Shown piece by piece: positions 6,009 through 60,286 of a stretch of 63,294 bases of DNA. Under the pieces are notes generated by a model that worked only from the letters and a program-made list of their open reading frames with translations, was not told the DNA's origin and ran no database searches. This stretch comes from Phycisphaerae bacterium (GTDB lineage Bacteria > Planctomycetota > Phycisphaerae > Sedimentisphaerales > Anaerobacaceae): assembly GCA_030619925.1 (NCBI GenBank), contig JAUXAL010000011.1, forward strand, positions 1 through 63,294, read 5' to 3'. Both the position numbers and the translations under genes were made by a program. The first letter of the stretch is position 1, and the number at the start of each line of letters is the position of its first letter.

Positions 6009-6587
6009 CTACCATTTTTCTTCCATTAATTCTACGATCTTTTGTGCCAAATTGTTTGCCGCAAGAGTAGATGCATACTTAAAGTCCTGCATTTGGTAGG
6101 TGGAATAGCTTGCTGAGGCGCTAACCGACTGATTGTCTATCAGCAGTTCTCCCGTCTTTAGATTTTTCCAGTTAACCCTCGCCTTCAGTTCCAATTCTCG
6201 TTCCAGGACCCTGCCTGTTTCGCGTTCGGTGCTGAGCATAAATATCCCCATCGATACTATTTGACCGCCTATTACGGTATCAGCACGGTCCAGGCTGGAG
6301 ACTAACTTATAGGGCGTCTCTACCTCGATACGCTTGGCGAGGGCATCGGAAAGTTCGTACTCTACTCCTCGTCGAAAGGTCTGGTTGTCAAACATTTCCA
6401 GGCAGACGCTGCTGACGTCTTGTGGAAACAGCGGCTCGTCAGAATAGCCGCTCATTTCGGCGCATCCGGAAGACAGAAGACAGAAGACAGAAAACAGAAG
6501 GCAGAAGACAGAAGACAGAGGACAGAGGACATCTAACTTCTGACATCTGACTTCTGACATCGTGTTGAGCTGGCTTTCTTTTTTCAT
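6009..6587 (-). CDS. LptE-like lipoprotein with repeat-derived signal peptide
   Basis: The mature part, from lipobox LSSGC onward, has the pattern of LptE/RlpB-family lipoproteins. These partner LptD in placing LPS at the outer membrane. Visible blocks include MFDNQTFRRGVEYELSDALA and LDRADTVIGGQI. The start at 6587 overlaps the upstream gene by 4 bp (ATGA). Residues 10 to 40, which include the whole hydrophobic core (PLSSVFCLLFSVFCLLSS), are encoded by a 13-unit heptanucleotide array at 6468-6558. The leader therefore appears to have been replaced or built by the repeat. An alternative start is Met10. The LptE assignment rests on the pattern and on the BamD-like neighbour. Confidence 0.72.
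   Translation of the reverse strand: MKKESQLNTMSEVRCQKLDVLCPLSSVFCLLFSVFCLLSSGCAEMSGYSDEPLFPQDVSSVCLEMFDNQTFRRGVEYELSDALAKRIEVETPYKLVSSLDRADTVIGGQIVSMGIFMLSTERETGRVLERELELKARVNWKNLKTGELLIDNQSVSASASYSTYQMQDFKYASTLAANNLAQKIVELMEEKW
6468..6558. repeat. Heptanucleotide array, 13 units, inside LptE-like gene
   Basis: Thirteen consecutive 7-mers (plus strand: ggaagac, agaagac, agaagac, agaaaac, agaaggc and so on). Polarity switches at 6531 to atctaac/ttctgac units, so the two parts are partly self-complementary. Confidence 0.92.
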
Positions 6588-7573
6588 TTCTCTGTTTCTT
6601 CCATATCCAGATTTTTAGTAAGCATTTCCTCCGCTATTTTTGTCACCTTACTGTCCGGCCAATTATTTTTTACCATGTTATAATAAAGATTAGCCGCCTG
6701 TCTGTTAGCGGTTCTTTGGTAATACTGGCTGATAGCAAATTGCTTGTAAGCTAATTGTTCATTTATCTGGTTCAGTATCTGGTCAATACCTATTTCTTCG
6801 GCATCTTTGGGATACAGTAATCGGAATTTTTCGTAGTAGCTTTTTGCGGTACTTAGACTTGAGGCATCATACTGTGACCTTTTATGCTCAGGATGATTGT
6901 TATACACAGCGTGTTTGCAGCGAGCCATACCGAGCAGCGCATCGGCGCCGAGTTGACCCGTTTCCCATTGCGATGATATCTCCCGCCATTTATAGTATGC
7001 CTCGTTGAATTTTCCTCTTTGTTCATAATTTTCAGCCACCGCTATAGCAGCTTTTATTCCCATTGGTGAACCAAGACCGACTCGGTCGGTAATTTGCTCC
7101 ATAACTCTGATGCCCTCGGCGTATCCTCTGATTTTAAAAATGCGGAGCACCTTCCTTTTCCGGCCGGCCAAAAAAGCCGTCGCGATTGCGAACTGCCTGT
7201 CTAAGGCCGCCTGGCGAAGTTGGCTCTGCGGATATTTAGTAAGCAATTTATTGTGGGTCCTGGCCGCCGTGGTGAACTTGCCTTTGCAGAAGGACAGCTC
7301 AGCCTCGATAAAGAGGTCCAAATCAGGGGTCGCAATTTCCGGGAAGTCTGTTTTGAGTTTATCGAATGCCTTGCGAGCGGCCCCGGCTTGGCCTGTGTTG
7401 ACCAATTTTTTTGTTTCAGCCACCGCCAGCAGGAATTTGCCCTTAGCGTCGGCCGACACGGGCTTCCAATCCTGGTCTTTTCCCAAATGCCAGGTGTCTT
7501 CCGCCGAGACCGCCGACAAAGCTGTTAGGACGGCCGCCGCCAACACTATGAATCGCATCCTGTATTTCAGCAT
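6584..7573 (-). CDS. BamD-like / tetratricopeptide periplasmic protein
   Basis: A 329-residue exported protein with an N-terminal signal peptide (RFIVLAAAVLTALSAVSA). Tetratricopeptide-like helices resemble the outer-membrane assembly factor BamD/YfiO: a repeat near 58-75, KYPQSQLRQAALDRQF near 114-129, YYEKFRLLYPKDAEE, and a final block YYNMVKNNWPDSKVTKIAEEML. The leader lacks a lipobox cysteine, unlike classical BamD, so this is a BamD-like protein, not a proven BamD. It is the first gene of the run with the LptE-like gene (4-bp overlap) and ftsH, and has its own promoter at 7627-7654. The context suggests envelope biogenesis. Confidence 0.7.
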   Translation of the reverse strand: MLKYRMRFIVLAAAVLTALSAVSAEDTWHLGKDQDWKPVSADAKGKFLLAVAETKKLVNTGQAGAARKAFDKLKTDFPEIATPDLDLFIEAELSFCKGKFTTAARTHNKLLTKYPQSQLRQAALDRQFAIATAFLAGRKRKVLRIFKIRGYAEGIRVMEQITDRVGLGSPMGIKAAIAVAENYEQRGKFNEAYYKWREISSQWETGQLGADALLGMARCKHAVYNNHPEHKRSQYDASSLSTAKSYYEKFRLLYPKDAEEIGIDQILNQINEQLAYKQFAISQYYQRTANRQAANLYYNMVKNNWPDSKVTKIAEEMLTKNLDMEETEK

Positions 7574-7626
7574 AATTCAGCCCGCCACTTATTCTGAAGT
7601 TCGGCGTTTCGCCGCAACGACTTGAT

Positions 7627-7654
7627 ATTATACCTGGTTTTGAAACCATTGCAA
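7627..7654 (-). promoter_or_regulatory. Promoter of BamD-like/LptE-like/ftsH operon
   Basis: Minus-strand TTGCAA (7649-7654), 16-bp spacer, and perfect TATAAT (7627-7632), about 55 bp ahead of the gene start at 7573. The -35 hexamer is its own reverse complement and may also serve the divergent plus-strand promoter. Confidence 0.6.
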
Positions 7655-7677
7655 ACCAACACTTTAAAATATAGTAT
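7649..7677 (+). promoter_or_regulatory. Possible divergent promoter sharing the same -35
   Basis: Plus-strand TTGCAA (7649-7654), 17-bp spacer and TAGTAT (7672-7677), about 110 bp ahead of the ADP-ribosylglycohydrolase gene. The -10 is weaker than on the minus strand. Confidence 0.35.
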
Positions 7678-7787
7678 CTTGGCAATTTGGCCGGTGCGAT
7701 TCGAAAAAGCTTGTTTTTTGTGTCTCTGGCAATTATAAAGCTATAGATTAATCAACCGTATTTTTTGGGAGCTGATGGAGGTGTAAA

Positions 7788-9092: not shown

Positions 9093-9104
9093 ATTGGGAT
9101 GTGC

Positions 9105-9129: not shown

Positions 9130-9155
9130 TGAATACTTTTCTGAAAGGGGATATT

Positions 9156-10245: not shown

Positions 10246-10262
10246 GTAAATCAGGACGCCCT

Positions 10263-11284: not shown

Positions 11285-11319
11285 GCAGAATACAGAATTC
11301 AGAAGACAGAATACAGAAT
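11285..11319. repeat. Heptanucleotide array, 5 units
   Basis: Units gcagaat, acagaat, tcagaag, acagaat, acagaat in exact 7-bp register, in the 11.1-12.7 kb gap. Confidence 0.8.
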
Positions 11320-11405
11320 CCCGATACGCTATCCGCTGGTCTCCAATCTCTAATCCACTCAAGAATCCGTGCTAATCTGTGGCTAAAAAAATCCGTGAAG
11401 ATTAT

Positions 11406-11551: not shown

Positions 11552-11911
11552 TTAAAAGGGAAAAGCGAGATACCCGAAGGTGCTTGAGGGCTAAATTTTT
11601 ATAAAAACAAAGCTACAGCATTTTGCGTCTGCGGAGGAGCCAGCCTAAGGATTGATACAGGTTTTTCAGCTTTTTCCCTTTAATCCGTGCTAATCCGTGT
11701 AAGCCTGTCTAAAAAAACTTCGTGTTAATCCGTGTCTAATCTTTTTTTCGTGCCTTTTTTGCCTTTTCGTGGCTCAAACCTCTCCCTCACGGTCGTGGCT
11801 CCGTAGTGTATCGTTCTTTGTGCTCTTTGTGGCTAAAAATTCCGTGAAATCTGTGGTTAAAAATTTACTCGAAATCTAATCTGTTTTATGGTATAATGTA
11901 TCTAACTAATA

Positions 11912-11995
11912 GATACTCGATATTCGATACTCGATACTCGATACTGGATAGCAAATATCAAATAGCGTATAGCGTATAGCGGATAGCGTATATCA
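11912..11995. repeat. Heptanucleotide array, 12 units
   Basis: GATACTC, GATATTC, GATACTC, GATACTC, GATACTG, GATAGCA, AATATCA, AATAGCG, TATAGCG, TATAGCG, GATAGCG, TATATCA. The unit drifts from GATACTC to TATAGCG with no change in the 7-bp period. Confidence 0.9.
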
Positions 11996-12140
11996 AAAGA
12001 AATCCGACCTTCCTTGGACGGAACAAATCATGAGGGGTTCCTGATGGCCATCGTTTTACAAAACGCCGGAAAACAGGGCTTTTTTGTCACATCAGGCCGA
12101 AATAGCGGAGAAATCGACGAAAAGTTTGACTATTTTATGC

Positions 12141-12302
12141 AAAACAAAGCCAATTTCCGAAAAAGTCAAATGAATGTAAACACTTTTACACAAATGGCTT
12201 ATGAAAATAAATCCAATTGGACACTTGGTGAAAACAAACCCAATTCAAACCCAAACAAAGCCAATTTCCAAAAAGCCCAAATGAATGTAAACTCATTTAT
12301 AA
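12141..12302 (+). repeat. Imperfect ~50-bp repeat, two copies
   Basis: Copies at 12141-12190 and 12253-12302 share aacaaagccaatttcc and aaatgaatgtaaac; partial copies follow to 12390. Translated, they give NKANF..QMNVN-type peptides. From memory, such peptides occur as open-frame artefacts in related planctomycete genomes. Confidence 0.65.
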
Positions 12303-12396
12303 CAAAGGATTACAGAAAAGAAGATGATTTCGCAGTCCAAAAAAACAAAGCCAATTCAAAGCCAATTCAAACCCAAACAAAGCCAATTTTCAAATC

Positions 12397-12501
12397 GGAA
12401 GACAGAAGTCAGAAGGCAGAAGGCAGAAGGCAGAAGGCAGAAGGCAGAAGGCAGAAGGCAGAAGGCAGAAGGCAGAAGGCAGAAGGCAGAAGGCAGAAGG
12501 C
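12397..12501. repeat. Heptanucleotide array, 15 units
   Basis: ggaagac, agaagtc, then thirteen identical AGAAGGC units. It is the most homogeneous, and so probably the youngest, array in the window. Confidence 0.95.
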
Positions 12502-12745
12502 AGGCAGGCTTTGCTCAGGGCTGAAGGCTGGTTCGGTCGAAATGACGGTATTGTCAAGGAACTTATTAAATGCTGTATTAGTGGTCTGTAAAATGATAAA
12601 TGTGTGGTGGTTACAAGCAGTTGCCTTGGGCCATCCCCAAGCTCATCCCGCATTTGCGGGATTCGCTTGCAGTCGCCGCGGCGCCCAGCCAGGGAGGCTG
12701 CCACCCATAAAAATAGATATTAAAGAATAGTCGGAGTGTAGGAAA

Positions 12746-25166: not shown

Positions 25167-25196
25167 TGGTCAAATTTGTTTAATTCAGCGACGGTG

Positions 25197-26396
25197 ATGC
25201 AGCCTTTCACTCTTTTAATCAAGCCATCGGGTTCAGATTGCAATATTGATTGCAAATACTGTTTTTACAAGGCCAGGGCTCCGGAATTTGGACAGGGCAG
25301 GCAGCGAATGAGCGACGAAGTGCTCGAGAAACTTGTTAAAGATTATATGCAGCTGGGTTTTGCGGTTGTCGGCTTTGCCTGGCAGGGCGGTGAGCCTACG
25401 TTGATGGGCGTCGATTTTTTCAGAAGGGCGGTGGAATTACAAAAGAAATACGGCGGCAGCGGCCAACAGGTAAGCAATACGCTGCAAACCAACGGCGTTT
25501 TGCTTGACGATAAGTGGTGCCGGTTCTTCGGCGAAAACAAGTTTCTGCTCGGTATAAGCATCGACGGCCCAAAAGAATTTCACGACTACTACCGCCTCGA
25601 CCATTCCGGTTCGGGGACATTCGACAGGGTGATGCGAGGCATCGAAAAGTGCAAGAAGCATAAGGTTGAATTTAGTGCCCTTGTTTTGCTGAATAATAAA
25701 AACGTAGAGCAGCCGGACAAGCTGTTTGATTTCTTAGTTGAAAATGACCTGACGTTTATACAGTTCATTCCCTGTATTGAGAGGGACCCCGCCACCGGTA
25801 ACATTGCGGATTTTTCAATCACGGCGAAGCAGTACGGCGATTTCTTGTGCAGGTTATTCGACCTCTGGTACGACTACGGCCCGGAAAAACTGAACATCCG
25901 TGAGTTTGACTCGTTAGTGACCTGTTACGTTATGGGCAATCACACAATTTGCACATACAGCAAACAATGCGCCGGTTTTGTCGTTATCGAGCACACCGGC
26001 GATGCGTTTTGCTGTGAGTTTTTTGTCGAGCCGAAGTGGCGATTAGGCAGCATCTTTGAAACGCCGCTCGAGAAACTCGCCGCCGGCAGCAAAAAGCGGG
26101 CCTTTGCGCGGAGCAAGGAGAATCTCTGCAACAAATGTCTTGTTTGCAGATACCTTGATATCTGCCGCGGCGGTTGTATGAAAGATAGAGCGGTGCTCGA
26201 TGCTGGATACTCGATACTCGACGAGAATCAAGAATCGAGAATCGAGGGTCGAGAAAATTATTTCTGTGAGAGTTATAAGCAGTTTTTCGATTACACAATT
26301 CCAAGGTTTATGCAAATTGCCGCTGCCATAGAAGATGGTTCCGCTGCCAGACACACGCGTTCGGCTGAAAAAGTCAGGCTGCGAATCGAGAAGTAA
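25197..26396 (+). CDS. Anaerobic sulfatase maturase (radical SAM), copy 1
   Basis: A radical-SAM enzyme that converts the active-site Cys or Ser of sulfatases to formylglycine without oxygen. The 399-residue protein has the cluster CNIDCKYC (C15, C19, C22), GGEPTLMG, and SIDGPKEFHDYYR. A C-terminal SPASM region has several cysteines, including CNKCLVCRYLDICRGGCMKDR. ATG at 25197 matches the start of copy 2. A heptamer array (26206-26254) is embedded in frame between KDR and YFCESYK and encodes DAGYSILDENQESRIEGREN. Adjacent sulfatase and second maturase support the role. Confidence 0.9.
   Translation: MQPFTLLIKPSGSDCNIDCKYCFYKARAPEFGQGRQRMSDEVLEKLVKDYMQLGFAVVGFAWQGGEPTLMGVDFFRRAVELQKKYGGSGQQVSNTLQTNGVLLDDKWCRFFGENKFLLGISIDGPKEFHDYYRLDHSGSGTFDRVMRGIEKCKKHKVEFSALVLLNNKNVEQPDKLFDFLVENDLTFIQFIPCIERDPATGNIADFSITAKQYGDFLCRLFDLWYDYGPEKLNIREFDSLVTCYVMGNHTICTYSKQCAGFVVIEHTGDAFCCEFFVEPKWRLGSIFETPLEKLAAGSKKRAFARSKENLCNKCLVCRYLDICRGGCMKDRAVLDAGYSILDENQESRIEGRENYFCESYKQFFDYTIPRFMQIAAAIEDGSAARHTRSAEKVRLRIEK
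26206..26254. repeat. In-frame heptanucleotide array, 7 units, in maturase 1
   Basis: GATACTC, GATACTC, GACGAGA, ATCAAGA, ATCGAGA, ATCGAGG, GTCGAGA. Units invert polarity midway, giving partial self-complementarity. Confidence 0.85.
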
Positions 26397-26543
26397 CCGC
26401 AAAAAGCCCCACCCATACAGTGATTGAAAAAATGATAGCAACCTAAGCCAATTTGTGGTACATTTCTGGTCGCGGTGGAGAAGGCGAAGTTTCTATGTAT
26501 TTTCAAAAGAACAAATAAGAATGTTGACAGACGAAGTTTTGCA

Positions 26544-28010
26544 ATGAACGAGAACTTAAATCGGCGTGATTTTATAAAGGCCGCGGGCCTGGGGGCAGCG
26601 GCGTTTGCGATGCCGGCGTCCCTTTTTGCCGCAAAAAGGAAAGCCGGCGGCGCGGAGGGACCCAACGTTGTTTTCATTGTCGTGGACGATTTGCGTCCGC
26701 AGCTTGGCTGTTATGGCCATAAACAGATGATCTCTCCAAATATAGACGGCCTGGCTGGCGATGGTGTTGTTTTCCTGCGTTCTTATTGCCAGGTTCCCGT
26801 CTGCGGTGCCTCGCGCGCCAGCCTTCTGACAGGAGTACGGCCGACTCGAAATAGGTTTATTGGTTACAGCGCGCGGGTGGACAGAGATTTGCCGGGTGCA
26901 TTGGCTCTCCCGAAGCACTTCAAGAACAACGGATACCACACCATATCAAACGGCAAAGTTTTTCACCATTCAACGGACTGCAGGGATAGCTGGTGTGAAG
27001 AGCCGTGGCGCCCTGAAGGCCCCTGGAGGAATTATCTGCTGGAAGAGAACAGAAAGCTGGCTGAGAAAAACCCCAGCGGTGCCGGCCCTGCTTACGAGGC
27101 AGCCGATGTTCCCGACAACGCCTATTGGGATGGAAAACTTGCGGACAAGGCGGTTTCGGATCTTAGGCGTCTAAAAGATATGGACAAACCATTTTTCCTT
27201 GCGCTCGGTTTTTGGAAGCCGCACCTGCCCTTCAATGCTCCCAAGAAATACTGGGATTTATATAAACGAGAGGAAATTGATTTGGCGGACAATCCTTTCA
27301 GGCCCAGAGGCGCTCCGGATGCTGCCCTGCACAACTGGGGCGAATTGCGAGCGTACGAAGGAATCCCGAAAAGAGGGCCTTTGCCGGAGACCATCGCGCG
27401 GACGATGATTCATGGCTATTACGCATGTGTCAGTTACACCGATGCTCAAATCGGCAGGGTATTAGCTGAGCTCGACCGTCTGGGTCTGCGGGACAATACA
27501 ATCGTGGTGCTCTGGGGTGACCACGGCTGGAACTTAGGTGAGCATGGCTTATGGTGCAAACACTGCAACTTTGAGACGTCTTTACATTCGCCGTTAGTCA
27601 TCCGCGGGCCGGGAGTCAAGGCCGGCACTCGAACAAATGCCTTAACAGAGTATCTGGATATCTATCCGTCACTATGTGAATTGTGCGAGCTGCCGCTGCC
27701 GGGCCATCTTCAGGGCAGGAGTTTTGTGCCGCTTATGAAAAGCCCGGACCTACCCTGGAAAAAGGCCGTGTTCAGCAGGTTTCATGATGGCGATTCGGTC
27801 AAGACGGACCGGTACCGCTACACAGAGTGGCGCCGAAAAGACGGCAGGATGTATGCACGAATGCTGTACGACCATTCTGTTGACTGGGTGGAGAATGTAA
27901 ATATTTCCGAGCTGCCGAAGAACAGGCAAGTTGTCAAGAGATTGAGTAAAATGCTTCAGCAGGTTCGTACTACTCTGCGAAGCACAAGAGCTGCCGGCAG
28001 GTTGGATTGA
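26544..28010 (+). CDS. Tat-exported Cys-type sulfatase (iduronate-2-sulfatase-like)
   Basis: Hydrolyses sulfate esters, probably from polysaccharides. About 488 residues with twin-arginine leader NRRDFIKAAGLGAAAFAMPAS. The alkaline-phosphatase-like core has NVVFIVVDDL (metal Asp48-Asp49). The formylglycine motif CGASRASLLTG has Cys87 as the residue to be modified. NGKVFHH and VVLWGDHGWNLGEHGLW are also present. LGCYG and the KVFHH block favour the iduronate-2-sulfatase-like subgroup. It lies between two anaerobic maturase genes that can modify Cys-type sites. Start at 26544 is taken from the leader; the upstream in-frame codons are ignored. Confidence 0.92.
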   Translation: MNENLNRRDFIKAAGLGAAAFAMPASLFAAKRKAGGAEGPNVVFIVVDDLRPQLGCYGHKQMISPNIDGLAGDGVVFLRSYCQVPVCGASRASLLTGVRPTRNRFIGYSARVDRDLPGALALPKHFKNNGYHTISNGKVFHHSTDCRDSWCEEPWRPEGPWRNYLLEENRKLAEKNPSGAGPAYEAADVPDNAYWDGKLADKAVSDLRRLKDMDKPFFLALGFWKPHLPFNAPKKYWDLYKREEIDLADNPFRPRGAPDAALHNWGELRAYEGIPKRGPLPETIARTMIHGYYACVSYTDAQIGRVLAELDRLGLRDNTIVVLWGDHGWNLGEHGLWCKHCNFETSLHSPLVIRGPGVKAGTRTNALTEYLDIYPSLCELCELPLPGHLQGRSFVPLMKSPDLPWKKAVFSRFHDGDSVKTDRYRYTEWRRKDGRMYARMLYDHSVDWVENVNISELPKNRQVVKRLSKMLQQVRTTLRSTRAAGRLD

Positions 28011-28075
28011 GACGTACGGTGGAAACACATCAAAATAGATGAATAGTCAAGTTTGATTCGGGGGCGCAGAAGATA

Positions 28076-29308
28076 ATGCAGCCGTTTACTCTTTTAATAA
28101 AGCCGTCCGGCTCAGATTGCAACGTTGATTGCAAATACTGTTTTTACAAGCACCGGGCCCCGGAAGTCGGCGAGGGCAAACAGCGGATGAGCGATGAAGT
28201 GCTCGAGAGACTTGTTAAGGATTATATGCAATTGCGTTTTCCGTTGAGCGGTTTTGCCTGGCAGGGCGGCGAGCCGACGCTGATGGGCCTGGACTTCTAC
28301 AAAAAAGCGGTGGAATTGCAAAAAAAATATGGCAGCAGTGGCCAGGAGGTCGGCAACTCTATACAGACCAACGCAATCCTGCTCGATGACAAATGGTGCC
28401 GGTTCCTGCACGACAATAAGTTCCTTGTCGGCGTCAGTATAGACGGCCCCAAGGAATTTCACGACTACTACCGCCTTGACCATTCCGGTTCGGGGACATT
28501 CGATAAGGTGATGCGGGCCATCGAAAACTGTAAGGAATATAAGGCTGAATTTAATACTCTTACCTTGCTGAACGCTAAGAATGCGGAGCATCCGGACGAG
28601 GTGTTTGATTTCCTTGTCGGGCTTGGGACAAGGTTTTTACAGTTTATTCCTTGTGTGGAGGTTGACCCAGCGACGGACGAAATTGCGGACTTTTCAATTA
28701 CGCCGGAGCAGTACGGTAACTTCTTGTGCAGGTTATTTGACCGCTGGTACGAATATGGGCCGGGTTCCCGCAAAGCGGGGTCCCCGCAGAATTTGAGCAT
28801 TCGCAACTTTGATTCGATAGTCTCGTACTGCGTGACCGGCAAACATACGATTTGCACATTCGACAAACAGTGCAGTCAATATATTGTTATCGAGCATAGC
28901 GGCGATGCTTTCTGCTGTGATTTTTTCGTCGAGCCGAAGTGGCGATTGGGTAACATTTTTGAAACACCGATAGAGAAACTGGCCGCCAGCAGCAAAAAGA
29001 GGGCCTTTGCCCGGGCCAAACAAAATCTCTGCAACAAATGCCTTGTGTGCAGACATCTTACCATCTGTCGAGGCGGCTGTATGAAAGATCGAGTGATGCT
29101 CGATGCTGGATACTCGATACTCGACGAGAATCGCCCAGCACCGCTGGGTCTCGATCAAACCCGCCTTCGGCGGGCGAGAATCGAGAATCGAGAGAGCTAT
29201 TTCTGCGAGGCCTACAAGCGTTTCTTCGATCACACAATACCGAGGTTTATGCAGATAGCCGCTGAGATTAACGCCGCCCGGACTGCGAGGCCCCGGCCCT
29301 TTGCATAG
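28076..29308 (+). CDS. Anaerobic sulfatase maturase (radical SAM), copy 2
   Basis: Paralogue of the 25.2-kb gene, with the same opening (QPFTLLIKPSGSDCNVDCKYC), GGEPTLMG, SIDGPKEFHDYYR and SPASM cysteines. At 410 residues it is longer because of two in-frame insertions. About ten residues (GSRKAGSPQ region) come from a CCCGC-aaa-GCGGG hairpin at 28767-28779. Thirteen residues in the heptamer array come from a dual-hairpin element at 29134-29174. Both lie in regions likely to be surface loops, and all cluster cysteines remain. Retention of two maturases around one sulfatase may reflect other sulfatase clients elsewhere in the genome. Confidence 0.88.
   Translation: MQPFTLLIKPSGSDCNVDCKYCFYKHRAPEVGEGKQRMSDEVLERLVKDYMQLRFPLSGFAWQGGEPTLMGLDFYKKAVELQKKYGSSGQEVGNSIQTNAILLDDKWCRFLHDNKFLVGVSIDGPKEFHDYYRLDHSGSGTFDKVMRAIENCKEYKAEFNTLTLLNAKNAEHPDEVFDFLVGLGTRFLQFIPCVEVDPATDEIADFSITPEQYGNFLCRLFDRWYEYGPGSRKAGSPQNLSIRNFDSIVSYCVTGKHTICTFDKQCSQYIVIEHSGDAFCCDFFVEPKWRLGNIFETPIEKLAASSKKRAFARAKQNLCNKCLVCRHLTICRGGCMKDRVMLDAGYSILDENRPAPLGLDQTRLRRARIENRESYFCEAYKRFFDHTIPRFMQIAAEINAARTARPRPFA
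28767..28779. repeat. In-frame CCCGC hairpin in maturase 2
   Basis: CCCGC-aaa-GCGGG within 'ggttcccgcaaagcggggtc', absent from maturase 1. The same motif occurs at 12-25, 12647-12660 and 40042-40056. Confidence 0.65.
29109..29193. repeat. Heptamer array split by dual-hairpin insert, in maturase 2
   Basis: Three heptamers (29109-29129), then CCCAGC-acc-GCTGGG, spacer with GATCA, CCCGCC-ttc-GGCGGG (29134-29174), then two ATCGAGA heptamers to 29193. The net insert relative to copy 1 is 39 bp, so the frame is kept. Confidence 0.8.
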
Positions 29309-32812: not shown

Positions 32813-32940
32813 CCGGCGTGCCGGGATGGCGACTTGTAGTTTTCGCATGCAGTTGAGAGCAAAAAATTACCCCAATAGCGGTATTTGGGAGGTAAGGGTC
32901 GTCGAGGCTGGTCTTTATGTGTTTTGGCAGCCGAAAGGGG

Positions 32941-32989
32941 ACAGAGGACAGAGGACAGAGAACAGAAGACAGACTTCTGACTTCTGATT
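32941..32989. repeat. Heptanucleotide array, 7 units
   Basis: acagagg, acagagg, acagaga, acagaag, acagact, tctgact, tctgatt. Polarity inverts midway. It lies 44 bp ahead of the HEAT-like start codon. Confidence 0.85.
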
Positions 32990-33032
32990 TCTTTTTTGTG
33001 ATAAAACAAGAGGGTTTTTTGGAGATATTTCG

Positions 33033-34826: not shown

Positions 34827-34860
34827 CAAGAAAGTGAAAAAGCCAATCTCACTTTCTTGT
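34826..34860. repeat. 12-bp perfect inverted repeat at gene end
   Basis: ACAAGAAAGTGA (34826-34837) pairs exactly with 34849-34860. The right arm is also the first part of the 31-bp repeat unit that follows. A terminator-like role is possible, though the T-run is poor. Confidence 0.6.
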
Positions 34861-34981
34861 TATCCTGAGCGAAGCGCACTTACTTTCTTGTCATCCTGAG
34901 CGAAGCGTACCTACTTTCTTGTCATCCTGAGCCCTTCGCTCCGCTCAGGATAAACTCCGCGCAGCGGAGTCGAAGGATCTG
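34851..34981 (+). repeat. Three-unit 31-bp tandem repeat
   Basis: Units start at 34851, 34882 and 34913, with core ACTTTCTTGTyATCCTGAGC. The third unit runs into an inverted copy (CCTGAGC ... GCTCAGG) and ends gaaggatct. No spacers, so not a CRISPR. The rest of the gap to 35205 shows only a putative promoter. Confidence 0.8.
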
Positions 34982-44749: not shown

Positions 44750-44790
44750 ATCGTAACCGGCACACTGTGTTACGAGCCGCGAGCTACAAA

Positions 44791-44825
44791 ATACGCAATA
44801 CGATATACGACATACGATATACGAG
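44791..44825 (+). repeat. Heptanucleotide array, 5 units, abutting pheS start
   Basis: ATACGCA, ATACGAT, ATACGAC, ATACGAT, ATACGAG, then AAA and the pheS ATG. The only Shine-Dalgarno-like bases (GAG) belong to the last unit. Confidence 0.88.
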
Positions 44826-44828
44826 AAA

Positions 44829-46092: not shown

Positions 46093-47418
46093 ATGAAAGG
46101 CACAAAGATTTTGGCAATTTTGCTTGTCACAGTGATGTCGGTTTCTCTCTTGGCGAGAGTGGAAAACCAAGGTAAGGCCGGAAAGCCATTTGAGGAGATA
46201 TGGAATGCAATTCAGGAGATATGGAATGCACTGGAGGATTTGCAAGGACAGATAGTTCAAGAAATTGCTGACAGAATAGCTGATGTTGATGCAGAGGAAG
46301 CTGCAAGAATTGGTGGTGATGCTGATTTACAAAACCAGATAGATACTATTGAATTAACACCTGGTTCACAAGGAGATCCAGGACCACAAGGACCAGAAGG
46401 TGAGCAAGGGCCAGAGGGACCTCAAGGACCACAAGGTGAGCAAGGACCAAAAGGTGACAAAGGTGATCCTGGAGGAGCAGGCCTCTGGACAGATCAAGGA
46501 ACCAGTATTTATCCCAACAATTACAATCAATTTGTAATCACAGATATAGGCTGGGTCGGCATCGGGACGACAAGTCCGGAAACTAGACTTCATATTCTAG
46601 TTAGCGAAGGTGAGGGTATGCCGGCCAACGCCGCGGCACACAATCTTTTAGTTAGTAACAATGCATTTGCTGTGCAGGACGCAGGTATTGGGATCATTGG
46701 TGGATCATCCGGCCGTCCATCTCTATGGTTTGGTGATAATGCCAGTTCACACATGGGAGCTATTCGTTATCACAATTCTGATGACTCAATGAGGTTCTGG
46801 ACGGGCAGTCTTGAACGTGTTAGTATTGATGCCGGCGGAAACGTCGGCATCGGGACGACGAGTCCTACCGCTCCCTTGCACGTAGTGTCCAAGCCTGGGC
46901 ATGCCGATATGGTCAACCTTGTAAATGGCGGAGGCTATGGAATGTATGGAATCAATACAGTGCCTCCTGACAATGAAGTATTCTTTATCAACATTAACAA
47001 CTTAAATAATACTGCAATCTCGTTTATGGCCGGTCACGATGAAAAAATGCGGGTACAAAGCAACGGCAATGTTGGCATCGGAACGACGAGTCCTCAGGGC
47101 AAGTTAGACGTAAACGGCTCGATTTACCAAAGAGGCAGCAGCTTGCACGCCGATTATGTCTTTAACCCTGGCTATGAGCTGGAGTCGATTGATGAGCATT
47201 CAGAATTCATGTGGCAGCATAAGCATCTGGCGGCAATTCCAAAGGCGAAGGTTGATGGCAACGGCCAGGAAATCGTGGAAGTTGGAGCTCATCGGAAGGG
47301 CATTGTTGAGGAGCTGGAAAAGGCACATATCTACATTGAGCAGCTCCACGAGCGTATGAAAGTGTTGGAGGAAAAGCTGGTGAAACTGGAAGCAGGGCTT
47401 AGTGCCGGTGGGCTGTAG
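46093..47418 (+). CDS. Exported collagen-like surface/fibre protein
   Basis: A 441-residue protein with signal peptide ILAILLVTVMSVSLLA. A coiled coil with two IWNAIQEIWNALEDLQ-type repeats (about 33-85) comes first. Fourteen or so Gly-X-Y triplets (GPQGPEGEQGPEGPQGPQGE) follow near 95-130. Then come NVGIGTTSP motifs repeated three times, as in phage-tail-like fibres. The C-terminal module is DYVFNPGYELESIDEH ... KHLAAIP, a chaperone/tail-fibre ending known from Bacteroidota surface proteins, with a final coiled coil. Probably a trimeric appendage or S-layer-associated fibre. The strong promoter at 45921 suggests high expression. Confidence 0.75.
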   Translation: MKGTKILAILLVTVMSVSLLARVENQGKAGKPFEEIWNAIQEIWNALEDLQGQIVQEIADRIADVDAEEAARIGGDADLQNQIDTIELTPGSQGDPGPQGPEGEQGPEGPQGPQGEQGPKGDKGDPGGAGLWTDQGTSIYPNNYNQFVITDIGWVGIGTTSPETRLHILVSEGEGMPANAAAHNLLVSNNAFAVQDAGIGIIGGSSGRPSLWFGDNASSHMGAIRYHNSDDSMRFWTGSLERVSIDAGGNVGIGTTSPTAPLHVVSKPGHADMVNLVNGGGYGMYGINTVPPDNEVFFININNLNNTAISFMAGHDEKMRVQSNGNVGIGTTSPQGKLDVNGSIYQRGSSLHADYVFNPGYELESIDEHSEFMWQHKHLAAIPKAKVDGNGQEIVEVGAHRKGIVEELEKAHIYIEQLHERMKVLEEKLVKLEAGLSAGGL

Positions 47419-50945: not shown

Positions 50946-53900
50946 ATGGCGGTTCAATTTATTCTTGGTAGAAGTGGTACGGGCAAGACCAGCTATTGCA
51001 TAAAAGCAATCGTCAATGCGCTGCTGGAGCCGGCTGACGAACAGGGGCTGATTCTGCTGGTTCCCGAGCAGGCCACCTATCAGGCTGAGCGGGCGATTCT
51101 CAGCGACAAAAGAATAGCCGGATATAACAGGTTGAGCGTGCTTTCGTTCGACCGTCTGCAGTTTTTACTGTTGGGCAAAAATACAGCCAGGCCGGCCCTT
51201 TCGCGCATCGGCCAACAAATGATAATCCACAGGATTTTACGTGACAATAAAAGCAAATTGAAAATCTTTGGCTCATCAGCGACGTGGCCTGGCCTGGGCC
51301 GGCAAATGGCACAAACTATTGCCGAGCTCCACCAGTATGCGAAGACGCCGGACGATATTGACGGATTGCTGAGCGAACTGCAGAAGGATGAACGCGACAA
51401 TTTAGCTGTCTTGAAATTTACCGATATCGGCCTGATTCTTAAAGAATATTTGAAGTTCATCGAGGGCAGGTTTATTGACCCTGATGTTCAACTGACTCAT
51501 GCCTGTCGAGCAATGGCGGGGGCGACTTTTGCCAAAGGCGCAAAGTTGTGGGTCGACGGCTTTGCCGGCTTTACGACAGCCGAGCTTGCAATCCTTGCTG
51601 AGCTGCTGAAGGCGGCTGCAGATGCGCAGATCGCTCTTTGTCTGGACCCGTCAAAGATTGATTTGGCAAATCCGGAGTTCGAGAGCATCGAGGCGGTCGG
51701 TTTGTTTAATCCGACGCAGCGAACGTACGCCGAACTCGTCGACAGAGTAAAAAAATGTAAACTTCAATTGGCCGAACCGATAATTCTTGAAGAAGCGGTT
51801 AGATTCTCTCGTTGTTCGCAGCTTGCTCATATCGAGCGTGATGTATTTAACCTTGAGCCGCCAAAATTTGGGTCGGCAGATAATGTTCGCATTGTTTCTG
51901 CGCCGAACGAGCGGGCTGAAGCCCGGTTCGTCGCGAGGCAGATACGTCGGCTGGTCGAGGAAAAAAACTATCGATATCGTGACATTGCAGTTATCGCATC
52001 AGACATTGACCGTTATCAAAACTATATAAGGGCGTATTTTGACGACTATGGCGTGCCGTTTTTTATCGATAAGCGAAAACCATTGAACCAGCATCCGGTT
52101 GTTGAGCTTATCTGCTCGGCGCTGCAGGCGGTTACCGGCGGCTTTTCCCACAGCGATATTTTCACCTATCTTAAAACTGACCTCGTGCCGATACAGCGTT
52201 ACGATATCGACCTGCTGGAAAATTACTGTCTTGCTTTTGGTATAACCGGCAGCGACTGGCAGAGCGAGCAGCAGTGGCATTTTGCAGGTGAGGATAACAA
52301 AGACTTTGACGAACAGCGGGTAAATCAAATCCGCTTGAAAGCTATCAGCCCTTTGCTTGAACTTCGAGACAGGCTTTGTCCGGTTGACAATCCGGCAAAG
52401 ACGCTCAGCGGCGAGGAGTTCACACGAGCGGTTTTCGATTTTCTTGGTCGCCTTAAGGTCAGAGAAACAATCGGCAGCTGGATTGAAGAAGCCAACGAAA
52501 GAGAAAATAGTGCGACTGTTGATGAGCATCAGCAGTTTTATAATAAGCTTGTGGATATATTTGACGAGCTGGTCGAAGTTTTTACCGGCCAGACTATGGC
52601 GGCTGCCGATTTCTTTGCGATTGTCAATTCGGCTTTTTCACAGTTGACGTTGGCTTTCATTCCGCCGACTTTGGACCAGGTTCTTGTCGGCTCTATTGAG
52701 CGCAGCCGACATCCCGATTTGAAGGCGGTTTTTCTGATGGGCGCTACGCAAAGGCAGTTTCCGGTGCCGATTAGTTCCAGCGGTATATTAACTGACGATG
52801 ACCGCAGCGCTGCCGAGTCGGCGGATTTCCCGCTTGGGCCGGCGACGAAGCAAAGGCTCGCTGAGCGCCAATATCTGGCCTACATTGCATTTACGCGTCC
52901 GTCAGAATTCTTGTGCGTTACGTATCCGGCCGTTGACGAAAAGGGCGGTGCCGTGCCGCGTTCACAGTTTGTAGCTAATCTCGAATCGTTGTTTGAAGAT
53001 CTTACCGAAGAATCGATTGCGGGCGAGCAGAGCGATATTGAGAAGGTTCACAGCGATAGTGAGCTTGCTGATTTGCTCTGCGGCCGCCTCGGCAAAGACG
53101 CTTTCCAAGACCCCAGACCCCAGACTCCAGACCACTTGAGTCTTGAGTCTTTATTAGATGATCTTTGCTCAGATGAGCAACTTGCAGAATTAGGCTCGAA
53201 TGTTCTCTATGCAGTAAACTATGATAATCGTGCACGGCTGGATAGTGACATAGTCGAAAAGCTTTTCGCCCCGCAGATAAAAACCTCGGCAACGAGGCTG
53301 AGTACATTCGCGGCGTGTCCGTATAAGTATTTTGTGCGGTACATATTGGAGTTGAAGGAACGAAGAGAATTTAAGCTCAGACCTCTGGATGTCGGTGACT
53401 TCTACCATCGTGTTCTGGACGCTTGGTTGAAGCGATTTAACGGGGAAAAGAAGGATTTTATAACGATTAACGAAGAAGAGCTTCTGAAACTTTTAAGGGG
53501 ACAGATTGAAAAGTTGATTACAGAGGATTCCTTCATATCGAACTTCGCTCGTCATAGGGATCATAACACATTTATCATTAATATTGCTCGTGAATACCTT
53601 GAAGACTGTGTTTTGGCAATTGCACAGATGGTACGGGCAGGAAGTTTCAGGCCGAGGCTGTCGGAAGTTTCATTTGGCGAAGTTAAAGATGTACGTGACA
53701 CACTCGGGGAGTATGAGCTTGCCCTTGCAGATGACCGCGTGCTGTCTTTAGGCGGCAAAATTGACCGGCTTGATATTGCCGACCTTGACGGTGAGAAGGC
53801 CGCGATTGTTTTTGATTATAAGCGTAGAGATGCGTCCTTTAGCTGGTCAAAGTTTTACTACGGCCTGGATATGCAGCTGCCAATTTATATGTTGGCTGTT

Positions 53901-57300: not shown

Positions 57301-58224
57301 GACCAAAAGGCTTTGCACGATGCCTTTGAAACTTACGTGGGGGCCGGGGCCGTTGATGATGGTTTATTTAGCTTCAAACTTCATGGCTTTGCAGAACTAA
57401 AACAGCTCTCTGACTTTGTCATTGGATTAAAGGAAGACAGAAGACAGAAGACAGAAGACAGAAAATTAGCCCCCACCCCTGCGGTGGGGGTTAAACTGCT
57501 TGCACAGGTAAAGGAGTCATTGGCCTGGCGGTATCGGTTTGGCGATGCACCGCTTTTGCCTGCGAAAAATTCGGTAACACAGTTGACTCATCGCAATGAC
57601 GAGTACGTAAAATTCGATTATTCCAGGGTTTTAGACCGTCAGCCGAGCGCTCTTATGGCTGGGGAACCTGCGTTGACTGAACCGGTCGAACCGCGCCTAA
57701 TCGGCACAGCCACGCACCTTGTAATTTCTCAGCTTGACTTGACCGGCCCTGTAACCGAAGAAGCAATTGAAAAGACAAAGGAAAAACTTTTGGCCGATAA
57801 CGCTATAACCGCAGCCGTTGCCGAGCATATCGACACAGAATCTATAATGGCGTTTTTCCACAGCGACCTCGGCCGGTTGGTGCTTGATGCCGAAAAAAAC
57901 GCTGTCCGGCGTGAATGGTCGTTCACCTTTGCTCTGCCCGCCTCATTCGTCGCTCGTGACCCGTCGCTCGTCGCTCGATTTGTCAAAGATGAAACTGTAA
58001 TAATTCAAGGGATAATCGATATGCTGATCCAAACCCCACGGGGTTTGGTAGTTATTGATTTCAAAACCGACAAAGTAACAGCCGGAGAGGTTAACCAGCG
58101 GGCTGAACTTTATCGCGACCAGTTGGGGCTTTACAGCAAAGCAGCCAGTGCAATCCTGAAATCTGAAACCCTTAGTAAGTGGCTGTATTTCCTGACACCG
58201 GCTCGGGCGATTGAAGTCAAATAG
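54388..58224 (+). CDS. addA: AddA helicase-nuclease
   Basis: ATP-dependent UvrD-type helicase and nuclease subunit. 1,278 residues. Walker A TASAGTGKTAVL near 26-37; Walker B FVDEYQDINPVQQ; GDVKQSIYAWRGAEP; ILSVHKSKGLEFPVVFL; TTRARDRL. The C-terminal nuclease site is IIDMLIQTPRGLVVIDFKTDK. At least three repeat-derived insertions keep the frame: SPDREGGVSG (55923-55945), a dual-hairpin element (57189-57232, EALDGIKPTFGGQ), and a heptamer array plus CCCCCACC hairpin (57432-57490, EDRRQKTEDRK...). All helicase motifs remain intact, so the insertions probably lie in loops. Confidence 0.93.
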   Translation: MAEKKIKWTEQQKRAIGARGSDVLVTASAGTGKTAVLSGRCVDIVCDKSVCPDVWSILVLTFTDMAAEQMRSRIAERLKDAFLEKRDSHLLGQLMLLGGADISTIHSFCKRLITEHFYKLSLDPTFSVIDGDEAKLLKAEVLEKTIDWAWQQSNLRAALEQLLYRRDLRTSDGFPAKIIELSDFLDGVISRQHWYERASRLAETANPLASGLAEKQKQIITDKLQDILSQLRHAQQLAESEATTDQTKWLRNTHIKPVAQCIEFIKSGEWDQCVRAIRDFDKPTTYAPKGLPESIAGFLQRTAKAAVDAFKGLSQLAMINPDYLDRLSGSTSLQTKVLIELVKKFDRLYSQAKRAVNCLDFADLEHYALELLTDADSPEDKPLPSETALVLRGRYKYIFVDEYQDINPVQQAILDALSSSDNVFVVGDVKQSIYAWRGAEPQIFLERLKPASVDPANAPGGLRVDLNANFRSAKGILDFVNKIFSRIMTTSFTKINYDQSAQLRPAVVRESQSPDREGGVSGRKNVVEFHILDETNRDRDLQNKQGSESADDEDLNVVSSRQRQAAMIARRIRQMVGADTGRPEFQIYDREQDCLRGVEYRDIVVLMRSLAKKANDYVEVLRLAGVPVSCQATAGYFEATEISDLLCLLKVLDNPQRDIELAAVLRSPFFKVSDTELAKITIRESKGTKARGAQVTGGNFYDCVLRYCDSGPDAKLAGRLKEILAQIEQWRTIAREGNLADLIWQVYRETNFLSFVSALPNGQARRANLLKLHDRAIQFEGFASSSGIPSLTRFVEFIEKLQEVGQDWAPAEPESAAGNAVRILSVHKSKGLEFPVVFLAELDSKFNKKDIYGDCLADADDTLGLQIIDRESNSKLRSLAHEVIAEQKLLTTLAEEMRILYVATTRARDRLILTASQKQKNCHQIISTGFSFSGQGEALDGIKPTFGGQSIPDWQLRRCQSPLEWILCALSDQKALHDAFETYVGAGAVDDGLFSFKLHGFAELKQLSDFVIGLKEDRRQKTEDRKLAPTPAVGVKLLAQVKESLAWRYRFGDAPLLPAKNSVTQLTHRNDEYVKFDYSRVLDRQPSALMAGEPALTEPVEPRLIGTATHLVISQLDLTGPVTEEAIEKTKEKLLADNAITAAVAEHIDTESIMAFFHSDLGRLVLDAEKNAVRREWSFTFALPASFVARDPSLVARFVKDETVIIQGIIDMLIQTPRGLVVIDFKTDKVTAGEVNQRAELYRDQLGLYSKAASAILKSETLSKWLYFLTPARAIEVK
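55923..55945 (+). repeat. 23-bp motif shared with intergenic 11779-11801
   Basis: Matches the reverse complement of 11779-11801 at about 21 of 23 positions; core CGACCGTGAGGGAG. Confidence 0.6.
57189..57232. repeat. In-frame dual-hairpin element in addA
   Basis: CCAGGGC-gaa-GCCCTGG (57189-57205), spacer acgGGATCAA, GCCCACC-ttc-GGTGGGC (57216-57232). Same layout as in maturase 2. Confidence 0.75.
57432..57490. repeat. In-frame heptamer array and hairpin in addA
   Basis: ggaagac, agaagac x3, agaaaat (57432-57466), then an 8-bp-stem hairpin CCCCCACC..GGTGGGGG to about 57490. Confidence 0.82.
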
Positions 58225-58382
58225 GTCGTTGCTTGCGCAGAAATGACGCAAAGAAACGGCGGGACCATCCTTGTCTGTTGATGTTGTGTTTGTATAATGG
58301 GCTGTCCGTAAATTTAAGTTACTCAAAAGTGGCGATGTCCTGTATATGCAGTCATTGGACCTCTGGAAAATAAGGGTATATT

Positions 58383-59693
58383 ATGAATCGTAGAAAATTT
58401 CTGAAAACCTCGGCTGGGTTACTGGCTGCAGGTGTGCTGCCCGGCTGCTGGTCTGTCTCACGACCAGCTCCAAAAAAGACCAAATTTAGTTTCCGGCCCT
58501 ATCGCGCAGGCAAAACGCTTGGAATTGTCACATGCGTAACGCCTGACGACGGTTCTTACCTCCACACATATTATGATGTGTGTCCGTTCAGTCCTTCACA
58601 GCGATATTTGGCGGTTACCCGTGTTCCTCGTCAGGATCGAATTGCGACTTTGGGAGAAACGGCGGATGTCTGCGTTATCGACCTTAGAGAACAGACTATT
58701 GCAACCGTGTACACAACGAAAAGCTGGGGTTTCCAAACAGGCGCTAATCTAAATTGGGGCGCGACAGACCGACATCTGTACACCAACGATGTAATTGGCA
58801 ATCAAGCAGTATGCGTTCAGATTGACCTCGAAACAGATAAAGCAACAGCTTTCGCCGGTCCCATGTATCACATCGCCCCGGATGAATCATGCGTGATAGG
58901 ATTTCCGCTTGAACTGCTTAATATTACACAACAGGGATATGGGGTGCCATCTAAAGACCCCGAAAATCCCCGTCGGTTGCCTCCCGGTGCCGCAAATGAC
59001 GAGGGAATATGGAGAACGGATTTGAAGACGAATAAGAAAAGGTTGCTGGTAAGTCTGGCGGACGTCGCAGCCAAGGTGCCGGAACCGCCTCCAAAAAAAG
59101 GCGGCACATTTTATTTCTGGCATTCAAAATTCAACAAGCAAGGCACCCGGATTATGCAGGTTCTGCGTTGTTTATTTCCTGATGGTTGGGGAGACCGAAA
59201 TGCGATGGTTTTTACCTTCAATGCTGACCGAAGCAATATCCGGTACACCCCAAGTGATCCGATATGGGGGCATGGAGGCGGCCATCCTAACTGGCATCCG
59301 GACGGCGAGCACCTGATCAGGAACCTTAAACCGGATGGCAAAGAAACACGCTTCTGCCGGTTTCGATACGACGGTACCGAACTGATTGTTTTAAGTGAAA
59401 AGATACCGGGAGGCGGACATCCTACTATCGAACCAAGAGGCAGATATATAATCACCGATAGCTTTGCTTACGATGGTCTGCAGAAGGTCTCTATACGTTT
59501 GGTAGACCTGGTTTCAGACGATGAGCAAGACATTTGTACTATGCCCACTATAAATCGCGAGACTGTGAAACATCATGCACTTCGTTTTGACGGGCATCCG
59601 GCTTGGAGCCGGGATTACAAAAAAGTGTGTTTTAACGGTGCTCCGGATGGTAGACGGCAGGTATTTATCGCTGATTTGTCAAACATAATTTAA
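58383..59693 (+). CDS. Tat-lipoprotein beta-propeller, oligogalacturonate-lyase-like
   Basis: A 436-residue exported protein. The leader NRRKFLKTSAGLLAAGVLPGC has both a twin-arginine motif and a lipobox. The body shows TolB/WD-like propeller blades with repeated F/WxxDG...h patterns: CPFSPSQRYLAVTRVPRQD, HPNWHPDGEHLIRNLKPDGK, HPTIEPRGRYIITDSFAYDG and HPAWSRDYKKVCFNGAPDGR. The spaced histidines resemble oligogalacturonate lyase, which acts on pectin fragments, but the full catalytic set could not be confirmed. It precedes a pectate-lyase-like beta-helix protein, fitting polysaccharide use. Confidence 0.65.
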   Translation: MNRRKFLKTSAGLLAAGVLPGCWSVSRPAPKKTKFSFRPYRAGKTLGIVTCVTPDDGSYLHTYYDVCPFSPSQRYLAVTRVPRQDRIATLGETADVCVIDLREQTIATVYTTKSWGFQTGANLNWGATDRHLYTNDVIGNQAVCVQIDLETDKATAFAGPMYHIAPDESCVIGFPLELLNITQQGYGVPSKDPENPRRLPPGAANDEGIWRTDLKTNKKRLLVSLADVAAKVPEPPPKKGGTFYFWHSKFNKQGTRIMQVLRCLFPDGWGDRNAMVFTFNADRSNIRYTPSDPIWGHGGGHPNWHPDGEHLIRNLKPDGKETRFCRFRYDGTELIVLSEKIPGGGHPTIEPRGRYIITDSFAYDGLQKVSIRLVDLVSDDEQDICTMPTINRETVKHHALRFDGHPAWSRDYKKVCFNGAPDGRRQVFIADLSNII

Positions 59694-60286
59694 GTATATC
59701 GCTCATCGGTTACGCTGCTCGTTTCGTCTATCGTCTTTCGGTTTCGTATTAAATGCCGTTTTACGTTCTGCGCAACCGATACGAGTCGCGCAACCGCAAC
59801 CGACCTTATGATTTTGAAATGTGAGATTTGAAATTTGAAATTGTCTTTCAATGCTTCTTAGCCTGCCCTGCTTGCCTGATATTCGCTATCCTCTATACGC
59901 TATCCGCTATACGCTAAACGCCATCTTCTTTTTCCTTGCAAATCCAGCTTCCATAGTGTAAAATTATTAGAGGGTAGCGATACGAGACATCTTAGATTTG
60001 TGCTGCTCAGTAATGGCTTGCGCATAGTACACAGATAACAAGGTGGAAGACGATTAAAGGAGGAGCTATTGTGGCGCAGAGTAGAGATTTTTGCATTTCA
60101 ATTAACCGCTTATATTGAGCTTTTAAAGGGGACCCCAAACACGATAAAGAGCGTTTTGGTAACCTAAGGAAGGAGGTAGGGTGAAATTGAAGGAAATTGT
60201 CCGGGGCAGCCAAGGATAGAATTTAGTGGGAGTGTAAATTGTTATCGGTCGTTTTGTATTTCTATTTCTTTTGTAGGAGGATAGCC
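59694..60286. other. Intergenic region with heptamer array and LamG-type leader
   Basis: No gene. A heptamer array is at 59880-59921. From about 60108 the sequence resembles the leader at 16868-17012: gcttttaaagggg, GAAGGAGGTAGG at about 60170, and GTAGGAGGAT just ahead of a MCKKLI start at 60287. The remainder (59700-59870) shows only short direct repeats such as cgcaaccg. Confidence 0.45.
59880..59921. repeat. Heptanucleotide array, 6 units
   Basis: tattcgc, tatcctc, tatacgc, tatccgc, tatacgc, taaacgc; reverse complement of the TATAGCG-type units at 11961-11995. Confidence 0.85.

Follow-up and report, generated by a model that had tools for sequence, protein, structure and literature searches.

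The window analysed here, a stretch of 63,294 nt, is the entire contig C3 (JAUXAL010000011.1) of the draft genome of a Phycisphaerae bacterium (GCA_030619925.1; 4.02 Mb in 141 contigs, 92.8% complete; G000 in our set of genomes). Among the genes it carries are lptE, two radical-SAM/SPASM paralogs, pheS, addB and addA, and short tandem arrays with a repeat unit of seven nucleotides are found between and within them (Table 1). A preliminary description, made from the sequence alone, had taken the host for a planctomycete. This label is borne out, since an open reading frame (ORF) on an 8-kb contig titled Sedimentisphaerales, from relative G425, is 80% identical over 474 aa, with 86% identity at the DNA level over 794 bp. 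The same description listed at least eleven arrays that keep a strict 7-bp period with differing units. Tandem Repeats Finder (TRF), run on the window for period-7 rows, returned such a row at all eleven places. The arrays had also been called exact, which most of them are not: the rows have matches of 77–100%, with 100% reached only at 57433-57463. The units drift, while the register holds.

Table 1. Heptamer arrays and associated features of the window (SD, Shine-Dalgarno).
Positions	Strand	Feature	TRF period-7 row	Remarks
6469..6561	+	GAAGACA array, about 9 units, then inverted heptamers TTCTGAC/ATCTGAC	6469-6561	Fold z -2.9; near N-terminal end of lptE ORF (minus strand), ahead of lptE Pfam domain
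11286..11337	+	CAGAATA array passing into GATACGC/TATCCGC	11286-11319	
11869..11897	+	Sigma70-like promoter of leader cassette: -35 TCGAAA, 17-bp spacer, -10 TATAAT		By resemblance only
11912..11992	+	Leader mosaic GATACTC, GATACTG, GATAGCA, AATAGCG, TATAGCG in one 7-nt register	11912-11992	Non-heptamer insert behind mosaic
12044..12730	+	228-aa ORF behind leader, ATG after GAGGGG SD-like stretch		Family part, then 111-bp NKANF-type tandem repeats; reads through GAAGGCA array
12398..12503	+	GAAGGCA array, 15 units	12398-12503	Variants at one end
26191..26253	+	GATACTC/AGAATCG inverted heptamers	26196-26255	Last sixth of radical-SAM/SPASM ORF; fold z -3.1
29095..29193	+	Paralogous array site in neighbouring radical-SAM duplicate	29095-29124	Broken by dispersed element
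32933..32992	+	GGACAGA array and inverted GACTTCT units	32939-32992	Upstream of HEAT-repeat gene
44790..44824	+	ATACGAN array, 5 units	44798-44824	Ends 4 nt before pheS start codon
53105..53151	+	CCCAGAC, then CTTGAGT units	53108-53133	In addB, ahead of nuclease domain
57433..57463	+	GAAGACA array	57433-57463	In addA, between helicase and nuclease domains
57947..57977	+	TCGTCGC array		Second variable loop of addA
59880..59921	+	Intergenic TATACGC/TATCCGC array	59880-59921	TGAAATT-type units at 59815-59842

Periods were tabulated with an array detector that covers periods 2–30 and assigns one best period to each array. Arrays of a single-letter unit or of a unit reducible to a shorter period were excluded, and the period counts leave out stretches L319-L323. 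The main sample consists of 34 stretches of this genome (588 kb) that were not chosen for holding an array. Three of them (L199, L200 and L203) share a contig with a picked stretch, and several contigs were sampled via protein matches from the search for a beta-helix/fn3 family. The window and six stretches chosen for a GAAGRCA hit were kept apart. In the 588 kb, 40 arrays have 7 as their best period, against one at 6 and two at 8. The remaining 50 arrays fall at 10 (2), 11 (3), 12 (5), 14 (15), 15 (2), 16 (6), 17 (1), 19 (1), 21 (6), 22 (3), 24 (1), 27 (3) and 28 (2), so that 23 of them are at 14, 21 or 28 and 27 at other periods between 10 and 27. The window holds ten arrays at 7, none at 6 or 8 and one each at 11, 14, 18 and 21, and the six picked stretches hold 17 at 7, one at 6 and three at 8. 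The genome-wide tabulation of periods that had been proposed as a check thus shows, for the fifth of the genome that was sampled, that period 7 stands out sharply. Exact runs of 12 or more matched bases in the window tell the same: seven at period 7, one each at 3 and 11, and none at 5, 6, 8, 9 or 10. The arrays are longer than chance, as one first-order Markov copy of a 348-kb sample (20 stretches of the genome without the window) held no such run at any period from 1 to 30.

We found 98 array clusters in 763 kb, stretches picked for arrays included, which is about one per 8 kb; 64 clusters in 588 kb are left once the picked stretches and the window are removed. Extrapolated from the density in the sample, the whole genome may hold some 400–500 clusters. 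The arrays are commoner outside coding sequence. Only 6 of the 98 clusters lie within called genes, by a strict, home-made gene caller that covers 43% of the sample and misses genes; within the window alone 3 of 11 are inside, in a radical-SAM ORF, addB and addA. It is extremely improbable that the arrays are artefacts of assembly or library preparation. Contigs C29, C100, C130 and C12 of this 141-contig draft do start inside or near arrays, but 29 of the 98 clusters are flanked on each side by 100 bp or more of non-repeated sequence, ORFs remain open through the coding arrays, and arrays occur in other assemblies, including the single-contig genome G001 (two arrays in 40 kb).

The excess at seven does not extend to the shortest duplications. 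With the array clusters masked together with 60 bp on each side, 72 two-copy tandem duplications of period 7 were seen where 42 were expected from a Markov model (1.7x), compared with 288 against 159 at period 6 (1.8x) and 25 against 11 at period 8 (2.3x). Outside the masked clusters there is hence no excess of two-copy duplications specific to 7 over periods 6 and 8, and the preference for 7 seems to come in when arrays are extended or spread. An amplification process specific to 7 bp had been suggested; this agrees with the sharp peak among arrays, but not with the initial duplication step. The question thereby shifts from the origin of 7-bp duplications to why mainly 7-bp units get extended or spread, since longer arrays are enriched at 7 and two-copy duplications are not specially so.

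The 14-, 21- and 28-bp higher-order units (the 23 arrays in the 588 kb) imply that blocks of several units are duplicated, beyond the addition of single units. Such units also bear on a template-driven addition, in which a reverse transcriptase or similar enzyme would write heptamers from an RNA in the manner of telomerase. A constant unit length would be expected from it, and some arrays are polar by eye, in that their units are identical towards one end and vary at the other. We nevertheless consider it very improbable, as many unit sequences coexist in each genome, higher-order units occur, and no RVT_1 domain was found either here (92.8% complete) or in G026, G019, G023 and G009, the relatives with the most arrays in their samples (74–87% complete).

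Some of the arrays belong to a promoter-leader cassette. Window positions 11744-12400 are part of a dispersed element whose promoter region has at least 22 BLAST matches in this genome; more copies may exist, because 22 of 46 candidates were scored. The leaders of the 22 copies and of those on contigs C113 and C4 were read, and with the divergent C4 left unaligned 23 copies could be aligned. Many copies carry a TTGAAA box, a 17-bp spacer and TATAAT, which is sigma70-like by resemblance. The 5' leader that follows is a chain of heptamers reaching an SD-like G-rich stretch in the same register, followed by the start codon, mostly ATG and in some copies ATT or ATC. The units vary between and within copies (GTTCATA, GTTCGTT, TCGTATA, GATACTC, CAATCGT, ACAGACT, ACAGACA and others), and the register is constant.

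This register is seen in the distances between anchors. From AACTATGG to TCAGG the distance is constant modulo 7 in seven of seven copies (41, 48, 62, 90, 90, 111 and 132 nt), from AACTATGG to a CAATC-type end in three of three (49, 49 and 98 nt), and from the first ATACTSG to TCAG/TCATAAAGG in six of six (36, 57, 57, 64, 71 and 78 nt). The copies were sorted into these classes by eye, according to unit type. Overall the rule holds in 16 of 20 leaders, the exceptions being C3, C40, C15 and C129, which were set aside after the counts were seen and which by eye carry non-heptamer inserts. Three AACATACG leaders (86, 86 and 129 nt; residues 2, 2 and 3) were too few and mixed to be taken as a class. 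By eye, the left unit types TCGTATA and GTTCATA occur in all four combinations with the right types CAGAC and CAATC, and cassette copies have therefore probably exchanged parts.

The ORF behind the leader in the window is apparently a truncated relative, as judged by eye, of a 197-aa protein family that we denote MATEAQI (MATEAQI..KAIVSQN.VKHG). Behind the leader cassette, 111-bp tandem repeats at 12142-12396 encode NKANF/NKPN-type peptide repeats and are dispersed in this genome. In G023 a similar promoter and heptamer leader precede a full 197-aa ORF (MATEAQI...EGKAIVSQNPVKHG...); in G013 a TAAATAC-type array comes after the promoter, and in G009 the detector called no array behind it. Relatives of the protein are found in 14 of 41 genomes, and one match in the present genome spans residues 1-181. 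No family in Pfam, NCBIfam or PHROGs matched it up to an E value of 1; phage sequences gave no match, viral contigs no confirmed relative, and plasmids one partial match. It was also considered as the amplifier of the arrays and discarded, having no match in the array-rich genomes G019, G026 and G009 (74%, 84% and 87% complete).

Among the family matches listed, 25 start at residue 1, many of them partial; for 23 the upstream region could be read and two lacked a locus. The 23 leaders comprise a first set of 20 and three more, one of which has merely 95 nt upstream. A period-7 array lies within 190 nt upstream in 11 of the 23 (10 of 20 and 1 of 3), from eight genomes with four in G007, and the gap between array and start codon is 2-26 nt in ten of these leaders and 42 nt in one. 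Periods 5, 6, 8, 9, 10 and 11 account for 0, 0, 1, 1, 1 and 0 arrays in the first 20 leaders. The period-7 arrays of that set number 11, one leader having two, and fall into 10 unit classes, one of which is shared by two G007 copies. Upstream of other ORFs a period-7 array is found in 19 of 316 cases (6%) in relatives and 40 of 271 (15%) in this genome. Against the rate in relatives, 10 of 20 has a binomial p of 6.5e-8, to be read with the caveat that copies within one genome are not independent. At the leaders of this family, position and period outlast sequence, and the unit changes between genera.

This concentration, and the in-register entry of the cassette arrays into the Shine-Dalgarno region, could suggest that the register itself is selected, a protein or RNA machine reading the arrays or leaders in 7-nt steps so that only changes by multiples of seven survive. 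We regard this as unlikely, since period 7 also rules in functionally unrelated places (intergenic DNA, addA and addB linkers, a tRNA-synthetase loop) and anchor distances range over 36-132 nt. Moreover, four of the 11 arrayed leaders are from G007 and non-independent, and leaders may simply tolerate arrays. A bolder version, improbable in our view, would make the leader a sequence-indifferent ruler between promoter and ribosome-binding site, a row of heptamers conserved in nothing but the 7-nt step, maintained by expansion in 7-nt steps, reshuffled by recombination and read by something stepping in 7 nt. If it were true, expression would be tuned by leader length and the sequence would be free to turn over.

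Orthologous sites were compared in AddA and in G425, a syntenic relative with 71–77% DNA identity. AddA was read in this genome and in 19 of the 36 relatives with a match, those for which a locus could be retrieved. It has two variable stretches with heptamer arrays, and the unit differs by genus: GAAGACA here, AAAAAGC in G021 and ACTCAAA in G005 at site 1, and TCGTCGC here, CACGCTT in G019, CGAGCTA in G021 and ACGAGTC in G005 at site 2. Further arrays are found at another site in G015 and near the end in G004 and G026. Compared with G425, the pheS leader has five ATACGAN units here and two there, the addA site-1 and addB arrays are present here and absent there, and addA site 2 holds a longer insert there, with a REP-like stretch and ATACGC-type units. 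Conversely, a class-I tRNA-synthetase loop of G425 contains a GAAGACA array, in a segment that is 69 bp longer and in frame, and the array is absent here. A pre-existing seed is visible in the pheS leader, as the two units of G425, and at none of the other orthologous sites clearly.

Units are shared far more often than expected by chance. Among 82 arrays of this genome there are 122 identical-unit pairs against 4.2 expected, and among the 49 arrays of the unselected stretches 23 against 1.5 (maximum 14 in 3000 replicates). Much of this sharing goes with dispersal in repeated elements: for 60 of the 98 clusters at least one 200-bp flank recurs elsewhere in the sample at E <= 1e-4, and for 66 at E <= 1e-2.

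The reading that we favour, and hold to be fairly probable, is that the arrays are products of a process, patchy among lineages, that works in steps of 7n bp by slippage and unequal exchange between heptamer units and is accompanied by dispersal. The observations behind it are the preponderance of period 7, a register that is kept, length changes by 7n where anchors mark the site, the spread, and the differences at orthologous sites. Tandem DNA would be lengthened, shortened and reshuffled in 7n-bp steps with little regard to its sequence, the mutational step presumably being replication slippage together with unequal exchange between heptamers. Short seeds would arise at many periods, with extension or retention mainly at period 7. 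The arrays would also spread inside dispersed intergenic elements, above all the promoter-leader cassette, where mosaic leaders could form through in-register recombination between copies, and they would survive where 7n changes do little harm, as in intergenic DNA, 5' leaders and protein loops or linkers. A loss of MutS need not be invoked, because an open MutS frame of 878 aa was found, MutS being the one mismatch-repair gene searched for. The favoured reading leaves the preference for seven itself unexplained. A published guess, that the stretch of DNA in contact with the polymerase is 7 nt long (Mrazek 2007, via PMC4679880), would fit.

Several points weigh against this reading. Neighbouring units that differ at several of their seven positions offer little homology for slippage, and for this reason the keeping of the register is not simply explained. 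The filled and empty tRNA-synthetase loops differ by 69 bp, which is not a multiple of seven, and length change is seen between genomes only. Furthermore, plain local slippage predicts unrelated units at unrelated sites, and sharing is seen instead. The 32 clusters without a repeated flank, nine of them from GAAGRCA-picked stretches, form 18 same-unit pairs against 0.6 expected (maximum 11 in 5000), and the 19 such clusters of the unselected stretches form five against 0.2 (maximum 3 in 5000). Of 16 arrays from other genera, 8 have a unit that also occurs here, against 0.8 expected (maximum 5 in 5000), a count restricted to unselected stretches, leaving out eight stretches of relatives picked for GAAGRCA hits. 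Since clusters without repeated flanks and other genera share units, either a sequence preference or mobility of flankless arrays is called for.

Mobility would mean that short arrays insert without flanks at new sites and are then trimmed or extended. In cyanobacteria, small dispersed repeats insert at new sites, and some have inserted in heptamers. The pairs without repeated flanks, the units common to other genera and the tRNA-synthetase array of the relative are all consistent with such insertion. It is still quite unlikely, as neither a target-site duplication nor a fixed element end was seen at the single filled/empty pair examined, and none of three families tested (MutS, RVT_1 and Y1_Tnp) tracks the arrays. 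A Y1/REP transposase as the spreader was considered and rejected for lack of association: Y1 domains are weak here (four matches, best E 6.8e-6), stronger in G017 and G018, whose samples have no period-7 arrays, and absent from the array-rich G019 (74% complete).

Across phyla the period is shared, and the units show no such excess. A set of at least 113 contigs titled as many phyla, all matched by one GAAGRCA pattern, holds among its other arrays 135 at period 7, eight at 6 and 16 at 8; among the contigs listed, the 135 fall in 55 of 113. With GAAGRCA excluded, 10 of 130 arrays use a unit seen here where 7.0 are expected, and a repertoire common to phyla was accordingly rejected. Within the phylum, (GAAGRCA)3 occurs in 8 of 392 sampled genomes, compared with 8 of 41 close relatives (G000 being in both sets). 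A reversed-pattern control is uninformative in the case of GAAGACA, whose letters in reverse order give a rotation of the same unit. Contig L075 (MEYH01000025.1), labelled Atribacteria, has an ATACGAN array; heptamer arrays and an ORF of 58% identity are common to it and the present genome. It was not accepted as a match across phyla, because these features held in common with the planctomycete suggest that it may be mis-binned. Nine putative viral contigs from IMG/VR (L374-L382) contain (GAAGRCA)n, and 23 of their 42 tandem arrays are at period 7, the search pattern included.

Short heptanucleotide repeats, known as STRRs, are a feature of heterocystous cyanobacteria, and the preliminary description had pointed to them. 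Heptamers are peculiar neither to these cyanobacteria nor to this planctomycete. According to PMC4679880, heptanucleotide repeats are the most abundant category of long simple sequence repeats (SSRs) in most genomes surveyed (Mrazek 2007), and the prominence of 7 bp among bacterial tandem repeats has been an open question at least since then. As cited in PMC4679880 and PMC4692102, the long SSRs of that kind resemble ours in the over-representation of period 7 and the patchy occurrence among relatives. They differ in that here units drift in register and arrays lie inside a dispersed leader cassette.

The position of the arrays has a parallel in the TAACTGA direct repeats that MacGregor (2015, PMC4679880) describes from Beggiatoaceae, Cyanobacteria and Bacteroidetes, which in Beggiatoaceae form heptamer arrays directly upstream of start codons. 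In Microcystis other heptamers are mixed in, and between two Cyanothece strains indels are mostly in 7-nt steps. That system has one dominant unit, whereas here many units share one register, and TAACTGA is not the main unit: it forms one short array among the clusters (L198:7668-7691). Leader arrays near start codons occur in the cassette, in 11 of the 23 MATEAQI leaders and at pheS, and the other arrays are elsewhere.

Other systems share some traits. Degenerate heptamers of the Nostoc tRNA-Leu intron (PMC3488679, with the repeat classes that it cites from Costa et al. 2002) form a hairpin in the P6b stem and vary in copy number. That is a single RNA stem, whereas unusually good folding is confined here to 17 of 98 clusters (fold z below -3, against 3 of 92 controls). 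In this minority inverted heptamer arms are able to pair, in some clusters as 6-bp helices interrupted by one mismatch. The GGGNATC heptamers of Xanthomonas and Nostoc (Rehm et al. 2015, PMC4692102) are likewise in excess in non-coding DNA and variable in copy number, but follow a G-quadruplex logic, while the main unit families here lack GGG tracts and a few minor arrays have GGG or CCC. In Bacillus, tandem repeats of constant size and variable sequence (Subirana and Messeguer 2021, PMC8161180) are alike in their fixed unit length with sequences differing within and between species; their units are 52 or 20-21 nt, unlike the 7 here, and the word 'heptamer' is absent from that article. A heptamer satellite family has been described in Chloroflexus (literature compared includes PMC6749651 and PMC4060949). 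Speaking against a general trend in bacteria, an article of 2025 (PMC12699852) reports that short tandem repeats are on average not enriched there; the word 'heptanucleotide' is absent from it.

The heptamer phenomenon is thus real, broader than first stated and of a known kind, and the variant with a leader cassette looks new. We found no published account, in mainly open-access literature, of register-locked mosaic leaders or of heptamer arrays in planctomycetes, and the dispersed cassette with a heptamer mosaic in one register is apparently a new variant. The genome offers a good natural experiment, with 23 aligned leader copies, length steps of 7n in most, recombining units and a surviving register, to which the presence, absence and length differences at orthologous sites in a relative add.

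Some further repeats of the window deserve mention. Positions 25176-29308 contain two paralogous radical-SAM/SPASM ORFs on either side of a sulfatase gene, with heptamer arrays at the equivalent position. The element that breaks the second of these arrays (29125-29192) is 68 bp long, has hairpin-like parts and is 100% identical to a copy on contig C51 (L179), where it again stands beside heptamers; it resembles small dispersed repeats known in Nostoc for inserting into heptamers. At 34851-34932 there is a 31-bp tandem repeat with REP-like GTCATCCTGAGCGAAGC, and similar REP-like inserts break up the C129 leader and the AddA loop of G425. Rfam gave no match in the window at gathering thresholds. 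Repeats of 9, 18 and 36 bp (AGGACCACAAGG...) at 46380-46463, in the ORF at 46093-47418, would encode collagen-like Gly-X-Y repeats. At 60385-63183 the window encodes a beta-helix/fn3 protein of a large paralogous family, with 26 matches in this genome and matches in 37 of the 41 genomes.

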